Assembly: GCF_029894425.1 (NCBI RefSeq)
Contig: NZ_JARXYJ010000001.1
Coordinates: forward strand, 6,200,001-6,264,000
Source: Streptomyces sp. SAI-127
GTDB taxonomy: Bacteria > Actinomycetota > Actinomycetes > Streptomycetales > Streptomycetaceae
Length of the DNA: 64,000 bases
Direction: 5' to 3'
Shown: piece after piece, positions 24,863 through 28,140 of the stretch
How positions within the stretch are numbered: the first letter of the stretch is position 1
How the letters are laid out: each line of letters starts with the position of its first letter
Program-made: the position numbers and the translations under genes
The notes under the pieces: model-generated
What the model was told of the DNA's origin: nothing
Databases searched by the model: none
What the model saw: the letters and a program-made list of their open reading frames with translations, nothing else

Positions 24863-25139
24863 CCGGCGGCGCGGCACGGGATCGGTCCGGTGTAGGCGGG
24901 TCGCCGGGCTGGACGGATGGCCGGTGGCGCGGCACGTGCCCGATCCCGGTGGAGGTGGCATCGCCGGGCTCGACGGATGGTCCGGTGGCGCGCCACGGGA
25001 TCGGTTGGGCGGAGGCGGGATCGCCGGGCTCGACGGATGGCTGGCGGTGCCGCACGGGCCCGATCCCGGTGGAGGTGGCATCGCCGAGCCCAGGCGGATG
25101 GCCGACGGTGCTACACGGGGTCGATCCGGCAGAGGCAGA
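24843..25139. repeat. Five-unit 60-bp tandem repeat between convergent genes
   Basis: Units begin with TCGCCG at 24843, 24901, 24961, 25021 and 25081. Each contains a GACGGATGG-like core and a distal CACGG...GAGG part. Units 2 and 4 share CCCGATCCCGGTGGAGGTGG; units 1 and 3 share CACGGGATCGGT; unit 5 is more diverged. The pattern is thus A-B-A-B-A, a dimeric higher-order repeat. Unit 1 includes the last codons and stop of the pseudoenzyme gene, and unit 5 runs into the end of the opposing VOC gene. Confidence 0.9.
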
Positions 25140-25494
25140 AGGGGTGTCCCGCCGGGTCCGCGTAGACCCGGAAGTCCTCCTTGTCCTCCGCGTGCAGCGG
25201 CCGGCCACCCAGCTCCAGCACCCGGGCCTCGGCCGCGTCGATCTCCTCCCAGGTGGTCCCGCCGTCGAAGTCGAGGTGGAACTGCTGGGAGTTGCGGTCC
25301 GCCCGCGGCCACTCCGGCGGGGTGAGCCCCGGGGCGCTCTGGAAGGCCAGCCGGGGGCCGCCGGGGACGCGCAGGACCACCCACTCGGGGTCGTCGTCCT
25401 CCGGGGTGCCGCCCACGATCCCGGCGTAGAAACGGGCGAGCGCGCGGGGATCGGGGCAGTCGATCACGACGGAACGGAAGCGTGCGACAGTCAC
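25111..25494 (-). CDS. VOC-superfamily (glyoxalase/dioxygenase-like) protein
   Basis: A 127-residue two-module VOC protein: VVIDCPDPRALARFYAGIVGG opens the first beta-alpha-beta-beta-beta unit, and QQFHLDFDGGTTWEEIDAAEARVLELGG opens the second, ending in VYADPAGHPFCLC. His in FHLD and the acidic position in DPAGHPF fit the metal-site geometry, but the substrate cannot be told. GTG 25494 is chosen because AGGAGG lies 7 bases upstream. It is the second gene of a tandem pair whose products are near-copies in motif order. Its last codons lie within repeat unit 5. Confidence 0.85.
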   Translation of the reverse strand: MTVARFRSVVIDCPDPRALARFYAGIVGGTPEDDDPEWVVLRVPGGPRLAFQSAPGLTPPEWPRADRNSQQFHLDFDGGTTWEEIDAAEARVLELGGRPLHAEDKEDFRVYADPAGHPFCLCRIDPV

Positions 25495-25522
25495 GAGAGA
25501 TCCTCCTGGTTCGACAGGCGGT

Positions 25523-25882
25523 TCAGCAGGCGCAGAGACAGAACGGGTGCCCCGCCGGGTCCGCGTACACACGGAAGGTGCGGGAGTGGTCCTCGGCGTC
25601 CAACGGCTTCGCCCCGAGCGCCAGCACATCCTTCTCGGCCGCGTCGAGGTCCTCGACGGTCAGGTCCAGATGGAACTGCTGCGAGGCGTCGGGGGCGGGC
25701 CACTTCGGCGGTACGAAGCCGGGGGCGGCCTGGAAGGCCAGCGACGGTCCGCCAGGGGTCCTGAGGTCCACCCAGTCGCCCTCCCCCTCGACGCTGCCCC
25801 CGAGGACACCGGCGTAGAAACCCGCGAGCGCGCGGGGGTCCGGACAGTCCAGTACGACGACTCCGAGTTCGGCGATGGCCAT
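25523..25882 (-). CDS. VOC-superfamily (glyoxalase/dioxygenase-like) protein
   Basis: A 119-residue paralogue of the following gene, with VVVLDCPDPRALAGFYAGVLGG, QQFHLDLTVEDLDAAEKDVLALGAK and VYADPAGHPFCLC. AAGGAGGAAGCC just before the ATG is a strong ribosome site. Substrate unknown; enzymes and resistance proteins both occur in this fold. The upstream 120 bases hold a cluster of GGTTACC-like repeats that could be an operator for the pair. Confidence 0.87.
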   Translation of the reverse strand: MAIAELGVVVLDCPDPRALAGFYAGVLGGSVEGEGDWVDLRTPGGPSLAFQAAPGFVPPKWPAPDASQQFHLDLTVEDLDAAEKDVLALGAKPLDAEDHSRTFRVYADPAGHPFCLCAC

Positions 25883-25901
25883 GGCTTCCTCCTTGAAGTG
25901 C

Positions 25902-25968
25902 GGTTACCAGTAGAAGCTGGCAACCAGTAACGCTTACGGTTACCGCATGCTCCGTCATAGGCGGTAAC
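25902..25968 (-). promoter_or_regulatory. Cluster of GGTTACC-type repeats upstream of the VOC pair
   Basis: GGTTACCAGT (25902-25911) and GGCAACCAGT (25919-25928) are direct repeats 17 bases apart, and a third GGTTACC follows at 25938. GTTACCGC (25939-25946) is also the left arm of a perfect inverted repeat whose right arm, GCGGTAAC, is at 25961-25968. The layout suggests cooperative repressor binding over the VOC promoter. Confidence 0.45.
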
Positions 25969-26003
25969 GTCGCAAGCGAATTCACCTTTCTTGCGAGGGG
26001 GCT

Positions 26004-26085
26004 CCGGCGTTCACGCCGGGTAGGCATCGCATCCTGTGCTCGCGACGCGGAGCGTCGCCGCGTCGGGTTCAGGACGCGGAGCGTC
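26004..26085 (+). repeat. Left-end hairpins of the IS element
   Basis: CCGGCG-TTCA-CGCCGG forms a short hairpin at 26004-26019, resembling an IS605 subterminal fold. The 13-base near-palindrome GACGCGGAGCGTC then occurs twice, at 26044 and 26073, 29 bases apart. A further 168 bases before tnpB hold no recognisable gene. Confidence 0.55.
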
Positions 26086-26253
26086 CGTACCGCTGTCGGC
26101 GTTGCTGAGGTGATACGAACGCGTGTGCCGGTGATCGCTGGTCGGGGTGGCGGTTGTGGGATGGGGGTGCGTTTGTACGGCTGTCGTACGTACGGTCCTT
26201 CGGAGGGTTCGGGGCGGCGCAGTGGTTCCGGCCGCAGACCGTGAGGGGGCGAG

Positions 26254-27474
26254 GTGGCGCAGGTGACGGCGGCTGCGGAGGCCGGGCATGCGCGGTATAC
26301 CTACCGGCTGCGCGTGTCGGCCGCTGCCCGCACCGTCTTGGGGGCGGAGTGGGACCGGTGCCGCTGGGTGTGGAACGAATGCGTGGCCAAGTCCAGGGCC
26401 GTGCACCTGCACAGCAAGGCCACCGGCGAGAAGGCCACGTGCGGTCCCGCTCAGCTCGACCGGATGCTGACCGAGGCCCGCGCCCGTACGCCGTGGTTGC
26501 GTGAGGGCTCGTCGGTTTGCCAGCAGCAGGTCATCCGCGACTTCGGCCGCTCCCGTGCCAAGGCGCACAAGGACATCGAAGGGCGCCTGCCCATGGCGCG
26601 CCGGGCGGGGATGCCCACGTACAAGAAGAAGCGCGAGGCAGCGCCGACCCTCAACTACACCCGGCGCGGGTTCCGGTTGAAGGACGGCCGGCTGCACCTG
26701 GCAGGCGGCATCGTCGCGGCGGTGGTGTGGTCGCGGGAACTGCCGGCCGAGCCGTCCTCGGTGCGCGTGTACCAGGACAGCCTCGGGCACTGGTACGCCT
26801 CGTTCGTCGTGCCCGCCCACGTCGAGCCGCTGCCCAGGACCGGTCGCGTACTCGGTGTCGACTGGGGTGTGAAGGAGACCGCGACCACCACGTTTGACGC
26901 GTACGACCTTCCCCACGCCGGGCACGGCAGGGAGGCGAAGGCGAAGCTGGCCCGGTACGACCGGATGGTGGCCCGCCGCAAGCCGAAGAAGGGACATCCG
27001 GCGTCGAAGGGCTACCGTGAGGCGAAGAAGCTGCGGGCGAAGGCGTACAAGAAGGTCGCCAGGCAGCGGGAGGACACCGGCCGCAAGTGGGCCAAGAAGG
27101 TGGTCCGCGACCACGACGCCATCGCTGTCGAGGACTTCCGCCCGAAGTTCCTGGCCAGGACCACCATGGCCCTCAAGGCCGCTGACGCCGCCATCGGCGC
27201 CACCAAGGCCGCTCTGATCGAGATGGGCCGCAAGCACGGGCGGGACATCCGCCTCGTCCACCCCGCGTACACCACGATGGACTGCGCGCACTGCGATGCG
27301 AGAGCCAAGCATCGCCTGCCGCTGGGTGAGCGCACCTACACCTGCGCCGTGTGCGGAGCCGTGTCCCCACGGGACAAGAACTCCGCCCGCGTGATGCTTG
27401 TCCGGGCTGGTCTCGACCCGGCTGGTGCTGATGGCGGAAGACCTCCTGGAGCGCTGCTCCAGGAGGCGGCCTGA
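26254..27474 (+). CDS. tnpB: TnpB RNA-guided nuclease of an IS605-type element
   Basis: A 406-residue TnpB. The RuvC-like triad is intact: Asp203 in GVDWGVKETATTTF, Glu293 in AIAVEDF and Asp374 in SPRDKNSARVM. The zinc ribbon has CAHC (344/347) and CAVC (364/367). The N-terminal helical and wedge regions contain W-WNECVAKSRAVH and PTYKKKREAAPTLNY. TnpB proteins use an RNA from the element's right end to cut matching DNA and are relatives of Cas12. GTG 26254 follows GAGGGGGCGAG. Nothing suggests decay, so it is probably active. Confidence 0.92.
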   Translation: MAQVTAAAEAGHARYTYRLRVSAAARTVLGAEWDRCRWVWNECVAKSRAVHLHSKATGEKATCGPAQLDRMLTEARARTPWLREGSSVCQQQVIRDFGRSRAKAHKDIEGRLPMARRAGMPTYKKKREAAPTLNYTRRGFRLKDGRLHLAGGIVAAVVWSRELPAEPSSVRVYQDSLGHWYASFVVPAHVEPLPRTGRVLGVDWGVKETATTTFDAYDLPHAGHGREAKAKLARYDRMVARRKPKKGHPASKGYREAKKLRAKAYKKVARQREDTGRKWAKKVVRDHDAIAVEDFRPKFLARTTMALKAADAAIGATKAALIEMGRKHGRDIRLVHPAYTTMDCAHCDARAKHRLPLGERTYTCAVCGAVSPRDKNSARVMLVRAGLDPAGADGGRPPGALLQEAA

Positions 27475-27483
27475 GCCAGGAAT

Positions 27484-27533
27484 CCCCTTCTCTTCAGGGA
27501 GGGGAGGATTCAAGAGCTAGGTAGCGTGCAGCC
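27484..27533 (+). ncRNA. Predicted omega-RNA 3' hairpin and guide segment of TnpB
   Basis: CCCCTTCT (27484-27491) pairs with GGGAGGGG (27497-27504) around a CTTCA loop, followed by AGGATTCAA, the usual 3' scaffold of TnpB guide RNAs. The scaffold should end at 27513, so the guide would start at 27514 (GAGCTAGGTAGCGTGCAGCC) and its first 20 bases end exactly before the ATG of the next gene. The 5' part of the RNA would overlap the 3' end of tnpB. Confidence 0.65.
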
Positions 27534-28043
27534 ATGAGTGAACGATCGCCCGCGCCCGGGGCCCTGGCCCTGGTGGAGTCCCTGGTCAACACGCTGGACC
27601 TGGAGTCGGGAGCCGACACGCTGGACACGGCGGAGGGGCGGGCGCCGTTCGGGATCGTCGAGGGCGAGGCCGCGCAGGCGCGCGAGCTGCGGGAGTCGCT
27701 GAGAGTCGCTCTGCTGGCCCACGCTGGACACCCGCCGCATCGCACGGTGACGCCGCTGGGGGAGTTGCTGGCCGGGGCGCCCCTGTGTCTGGCGGTGGAC
27801 CCGTCGGACGGCTCGGCCGCCCTCGCCCCCGCCGACCCCCGCGCCCTCCTCTCCCGCATCGCCGCCGCCGTCGCCGAGTCCCTGGTCGCGGGCACCTGGA
27901 CCCGTCTGAAGGCCTGCGAGGCGACGGACTGCCACTGGGCGTACTACGACCGCAGTCCGGCGGGCCGGGGCCGCTGGTGCTCGATGCGGGTGTGCGGGGC
28001 GCGGGCGAAGATGCGGCGGTATCGGGGGAAGGGGGCGCCTTAG
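27534..28043 (+). CDS. CGNR zinc-finger protein
   Basis: A 169-residue protein with an N-terminal helical domain (about 1-115) of the type found before CGNR fingers, including LVESLVNTLDLESG, and a C-terminal finger: KACEATDCHWAYYDRS and RWCSMRVCGARAKMRRYR supply four cysteines in C-x4-C...C-x3-C form. The canonical CGNR is CGAR here. Such proteins are likely DNA-binding transcription regulators. The ATG lies only 20 bases from the right end of the IS element, so its original promoter may have been displaced. Confidence 0.87.
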   Translation: MSERSPAPGALALVESLVNTLDLESGADTLDTAEGRAPFGIVEGEAAQARELRESLRVALLAHAGHPPHRTVTPLGELLAGAPLCLAVDPSDGSAALAPADPRALLSRIAAAVAESLVAGTWTRLKACEATDCHWAYYDRSPAGRGRWCSMRVCGARAKMRRYRGKGAP

Positions 28044-28061
28044 GGAGTGCGGCGCCATGGG

Positions 28062-28140
28062 GGCCGGTCGCGCCCACGCGGAGCCGCATATCGATACAGC
28101 TTCGCGCCCTGCAGGGGCGCGGAGAGCTGCGCGACCGGCC
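28062..28140. terminator. Large two-level hairpin between convergent genes, common Streptomyces intergenic motif
   Basis: GGCCGGTCGCGC (28062-28073) pairs perfectly with GCGCGACCGGCC (28129-28140). Inside lies a second hairpin around CCCTGCAGGGG. The GCAGGGGCGCGG-GA-CTGCGCGACC wording is one I know as recurring in Streptomyces intergenic regions. It probably ends transcription from both sides. Confidence 0.65.

Follow-up and report, generated by a model that had tools for sequence, protein, structure and literature searches.

What does a TnpB element do whose right end lies exactly 20 bp from the start codon of a regulatory gene? Such an element occurs in the 64,000-nucleotide stretch of the Streptomyces sp. 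SAI-127 genome analyzed here (the window), upstream of a gene for a CGNR zinc-finger regulator. An earlier note, made from the letters alone, described a predicted guide ending exactly at the CGNR ATG and suggested that the element might cut the empty site, protect its own copy, or affect expression of the CGNR gene.

A complete TnpB element

The tnpB reading frame is uninterrupted by stops and encodes 406 amino acids, in which the Pfam profiles OrfB_IS605 and Cas12f1-like_TNB both scored above cut-off. Its best natural match in the PDB was ISDra2 TnpB (residues 15-395, E about 4e-25), which was slightly outscored by an AI-designed TnpB-like nuclease. The hallmarks of TnpB nucleases are present, namely the RuvC D-E-D triad (D203, E293, and D374) and a zinc ribbon with cysteines 344, 347, 364, and 367, as the earlier note had described. 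Among 98 non-identical full-length TnpB sequences, the window's included, the triad residues were kept in 98, 98, and 97, respectively, and each zinc cysteine in 97 or 98. The dN/dS ratio of tnpB against 11 relatives was 0.25-0.43, which indicates that the gene family is under constraint.

The ends of the element were read from 111 TnpB loci, two from its own genome and 109 from others, with some insertions fetched twice. The comparison used 91 of these, all with a recognized tail and each with a flank of its own; the remaining 20 lacked a recognized tail, contained N letters, or repeated a flank. The hairpin and the GGATTCAA tail are common to the 91 loci, whose sequences agree between the tnpB stop and TCAA, hairpin included, and diverge past it. 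The right end therefore lies at 27513 and the flank begins at 27514, where the earlier note had placed it from the hairpin and tail. At the left edge, TCAC was found in 39 of 48 loci, TTAC in 4, TCAT in 2, and other letters in 3, at least one of which (L050) looks mis-set; the 48, which include the window, are the non-duplicate loci whose left end could be read, three more having been lost to a wrong duplicate flag. Since the window carries TTCAC at 25981-25985, the complete element is 1,528 bp long and occupies 25986-27513. It thus begins well before the tnpB start at 26254, from which the earlier note had counted it. Its parts are as follows.

25986..27513, + strand: whole TnpB element, 1528 bp (ends kept in relatives; absent as a block from the related locus L148)
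25981..25985, + strand: candidate TAM TTCAC, the target motif retained at the left edge (TCAC at 39/48 left edges; TTCAC in L148)
26004..26019, + strand: left-end palindrome CCGGCGTTCACGCCGG (sequence; fold; kept in relatives)
26254..27474, + strand: tnpB, 406 aa, RuvC D203/E293/D374 and zinc ribbon (ORF, Pfam, PDB match, alignment)
27402..27513, + strand: predicted omega-RNA scaffold, overlapping the tnpB 3' end (RNAalifold, 91 sequences; same 112 nt retained by L188; length predicted)
27480..27513, + strand: right-end GAAT box, hairpin, and TCAA tail (sequence, relatives, RNAalifold; boxes of the IS608 type, PMC5934647)
27514..27533, + strand: right flank, the predicted guide (first 16-20 nt; 19/20 bases identical to the L148 empty site)

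The element is an ordinary TnpB-only (IS1341-like) member of the IS200/IS605 type. It is inserted 3' of a short motif, has subterminal palindromes, and lacks a target duplication, and the ORF list of 25986-27513 shows tnpB alone between the ends, the layout of the IS1341 group of TnpB-only elements (PMC9956272). The earlier note was right that TnpA is absent: no tnpA ORF lies within the element, and none adjoins it. The window yielded nothing at the Rfam gathering threshold and no tRNA.

Mobility and other copies in the genome

No intact tnpA was found in the element's own genome with the Y1_Tnp profile, the sole match to which, 2.2 Mb from the element, is missing the first 34 positions of the profile. 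Excision, and hence retention, may therefore not occur now. In a low-sensitivity search, sequence similar to this Y1 fragment stood beside one of the 111 TnpB loci (L124). GAAT and TCAA are the right guide box and the right cleavage site of IS608 (PMC5934647), and because the window element carries both at its right end, its ends look Y1-mobilized.

A pattern search of the genome returned four right-end copies, one with an internal tnpB deletion and one without tnpB. In the copy without tnpB (L188, C1:6565018-6565054), about 112 nt of the right end are left and the stem is preserved with other letters, as judged by eye; its own flank is a possible guide for a TnpB acting in trans. The deleted copy (L189, C1:5876330-5876725) has both ends and an open frame, the middle of tnpB being gone (residues about 40-316 in window numbering). 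A further copy (L190, C1:5626977-5628239) contains a second full-length tnpB, 75% identical, and its right flank opens with TTCACC, itself a target-like motif.

The insertion site in relatives

The element stands between two divergent genes.

25523..25882, - strand: glyoxalase-like (VOC) gene, divergent neighbor of CGNR (ORF, Pfam; beside CGNR in 53/53 relatives)
27534..28043, + strand: CGNR zinc-finger (ABATE) regulator gene, downstream of the element (ORF, Pfam)

By Pfam, two Glyoxalase_6 frames adjoin in tandem here (25111-25629 and 25523-25882, - strand). In 53 relatives, 29 from a first search and 24 from a second, the glyoxalase and CGNR genes are divergent and 83-162 bp apart. None of these 53 other CGNR loci carries tnpB, which marks the window's as a one-off insertion, not a conserved regulator. 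By-eye comparison of positions showed tnpB next to CGNR in no other genome among the matches listed.

An empty site, for which the earlier note had advised looking in related strains, was found in L148, a related Streptomyces whose CGNR is 87% identical to that of the window. L148 reads GGATTCAC-TAGCTAGGTAGCGTGCAGCCATGAGT and the window reads GAATTCAC-element-GAGCTAGGTAGCGTGCAGCCATGAGT, so that the empty site, with TTCAC present, fits both ends of the element. In the L148 alignment alone, other breakpoints about 7-10 bases off score equally because both ends have similar letters; the choice was decided by the conservation of the ends across the TnpB family. The CGNR leader pattern occurs in 9 of 392 genomes of the genus, the element's own included, and among the other eight only that of L148 has TTCAC before the leader.

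The predicted guide and omega-RNA

The right end does lie exactly 20 bp before the ATG, and to this extent the earlier description holds. The sequence itself does not determine where the guide ends at its 3' side, and the 20 nt are a length of choice. In known systems this end is determined by RNA processing; the reRNA of ISDra2 has a guide of about 16 nt (PMC8612924), and the 3' side of the AmaTnpB RNA is untrimmed (PMC10278001). In nine of 47 insertions with both ends read, the window's among them, a co-oriented gene begins no more than 100 bp downstream according to home-made gene calls; distances include +13 (L138), +20 (window), +48 (L046), +51 (L071), and +55 (L081). With nine insertions similarly placed, a special spacing to the ATG was rejected. 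The precise match between 20 bases and the start codon appears to be a positional accident with no meaning of its own, and it is unimportant by itself. That a predicted guide matches the insertion site is usual for TnpB elements.

RNAalifold of the 91 right ends gave an internal stem with compensatory changes in addition to the right-end hairpin; one pair of the internal stem is UA in 52, GC in 20, and CG in 13 of the 91 sequences. Since this stem overlaps coding sequence, it supports, but does not prove, an omega-RNA. When the genome was scanned for TCAC followed by 16 guide bases, with at most 3 mismatches allowed, only the element's own flank, preceded by TCAA, and one other site (position 5555399, 3 mismatches) were returned. 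Over the 20-base pattern, no TCAC site had 2 or fewer mismatches, and a guide aimed at another chromosomal gene was rejected. As the only close match in the genome is the element's own flank with TCAA instead of TCAC, the likely target is the empty allele.

A model for retention of the element

We regard a single insertion 3' of TTCAC, with RNA-guided cutting of the empty allele and sparing of the element's own copy, as the best explanation overall and a very probable one. An IS1341-like element would have landed once, 3' of TTCAC, in the short stretch that separates the divergent glyoxalase/CGNR promoter region from the CGNR ATG. TnpB would bind an omega-RNA made of the end of its own mRNA and about 16-20 nt of the right flank. 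The target of this RNA would be TTCAC+GAGCTAGGTAGCGTGC, a sequence that is complete only at sites lacking the element, either after excision or on incoming homologous DNA. A cut at the empty allele would then favor the return of the element by recombination with an occupied copy, while at the occupied locus TCAA stands before the match and the copy would be spared. Of the roles suggested earlier, cutting the empty site and sparing the own copy appear to fit these letters best.

Sequence comparison established the anatomy, both boundaries, the target motif, the intact catalytic residues, the empty site, and the lack of another close genomic target; RNA production, TCAC as the TAM, cutting, and repair are what the model predicts from them. 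A retention model was proposed for ISDra2 (PMC8612924), and gene drive by TnpB was reported in plasmids (PMC11870625). The candidate TAM TCAC was read from the left edges of the family; TCAC is a proven TAM of AmaTnpB (PMC10278001). Self-sparing through TCAA is likewise a prediction. TnpB reportedly uses its TAM flexibly, to judge from the title of PMC11043419, so TCAA may not protect fully. With both ends, a target motif, and a natural empty site, this complete TnpB element is material for a test of cutting and retention.

CGNR expression and alternative explanations

The one locus-specific twist may be the separation of CGNR from its probable promoter. A GTAAC core lies upstream of CGNR in 53 of 53 relatives, and in 22 of them the CGNR ATG follows 6-7 nt past it, which suggests a -10 box and a leaderless CGNR start. 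In the window, the corresponding site is immediately left of the element.

25965..25970, + strand: TAACGT, possible -10 box of a CGNR promoter, with a start point then at about 25978 (inferred from the GTAAC core in relatives)

A sigma-70 scan, which is of little use for Streptomyces, found no promoter, and no terminator-like site was found on the + strand in 25850-28100. The glyoxalase/CGNR intergenic region (25880-25985 in the window; also in the relatives L010-L038 and L148-L171) contains many GTTACC/GGTAAC repeats, possibly operators. Because the element separates CGNR from its probable promoter, tnpB, the omega-RNA, and CGNR may share a transcript; transcription could start near 25978, just upstream of the element, and continue across tnpB as far as CGNR. 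An effect on CGNR is possible, whether by parting the gene from its promoter or by joint transcription, rather than by TnpB binding at the occupied locus, which lacks the candidate TAM.

Such a transcript could also give the element a regulatory role. If tnpB, the omega-RNA, and CGNR were one RNA, the binding of TnpB to the guide, or its trimming by an RNase, might hide or remove the ribosome-binding leader of CGNR and lower CGNR expression. The interruption of an intergenic region that spans 83-162 bp in the 53 relatives, the promoter-like core at the left edge, the lack of a + strand terminator-like site in 25850-28100, and the function of AmaTnpB with a 3'-extended RNA (PMC10278001) are consistent with this. 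However, the start point is inferred and the promoter scan was empty, many bacterial insertions are simply polar, and the insertion is found in 0 of 53 relatives, so there is no sign of selection for CGNR control. We consider this reading improbable. Slightly more doubtful still is the related proposal that a single stretch of ~20 nt would act both as the guide of TnpB and as the ribosome-binding leader of CGNR within one transcript, with omega-RNA maturation or TnpB binding competing with translation and tnpB under the CGNR promoter. Titles and abstract openings in the literature offered nothing on point about polycistronic transcripts of tnpB with flanking genes.

Alternatively, the element may be an inert remnant, immobile and no longer transcribed, with a tnpB intact by sequence. 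The partial Y1_Tnp match and the two tnpB-damaged copies among the four right ends of this genome speak for such decay, and the open frame, intact residues, dN/dS below 1 against relatives, and conserved ends speak against it, although these reflect the lineage and are no proof of activity for the window copy. We hold this to be unlikely, if the least unlikely of the alternatives. The guide's position beside a gene's 5' end would also suit a domesticated, nuclease-dead TldR-like repressor of CGNR. With an intact triad, an insertion that is not conserved (0/53), an occupied site without a TAM, and no second close target, this interpretation was rejected as having next to no probability. Insertion followed by cutting of the empty allele thus remains our preferred reading.

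Insertions at stop codons

TCAC reads GTGA on the other strand. It can therefore share letters with a TGA stop, and such a stop is preserved by the TCAA tail. In 34 of 90 distinct insertions (L042, L043, L044, L068, L075, and L117 are examples), the TGA supplied by the right-end TCAA is precisely the stop of a convergent coding frame; the other two frames combined account for 6 of 90. Ordinary TCAC sites passed the same stop test in 83 of 2,658 cases. The 58 insertions with both flanks known, taken at a looser left-end threshold, comprise 17 that overlap stops, 31 intergenic, and 10 intragenic, compared with 48, 399, and 1,612 of 2,059 ordinary sites. The stop share of the non-intragenic sites is 35% for insertions versus 11% for ordinary sites (Fisher p about 2e-5). 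These counts rely on home-made gene calls, treat related insertions as separate events, and probably include a few misplaced left ends. Part of the enrichment may reflect selection against harmful insertions. The window insertion itself is intergenic. A narrow literature search, PMC7290912 included, returned no report of insertion at stop codons. The family thus hints at a simple rule, in which the target overlaps TGA and the tail restores the stop, and which may help explain where such elements survive.

Comparison with known systems

TldR repressors are nuclease-dead, with an inactivated RuvC, and they occupy a conserved locus from which the guide is directed to a regulated promoter elsewhere. 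They resemble the window element in being derived from TnpB and in having a guide near the 5' region of a gene. In contrast, the window triad is intact, tnpB is present at 0 of 53 other CGNR loci, and the genome has no second TCAC site with up to 2 mismatches over 20 bases.

IS608 of Helicobacter pylori has the right-end GAAT box and TCAA cleavage site seen in the window (PMC5934647). It differs in having tnpA and the target TTAC; the window element has no tnpA, and its family uses mostly TCAC (TTAC in 4/48). AmaTnpB and ISDra2 TnpB share with the window protein the RuvC triad, the zinc ribbon, and an omega-RNA, here predicted, that overlaps the end of tnpB. The TAM of ISDra2, TTGAT, is unlike the window's candidate TTCAC (PMC8612924), whereas AmaTnpB uses TCAC, the same as the window's candidate TAM (PMC10278001). 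The closest likeness is to the IS1341-like group: the window element, known from sequence alone, showed no difference from this group, in which tnpB likewise stands alone between hairpin-bearing ends and insertion occurs 3' of a tetranucleotide (PMC9956272).
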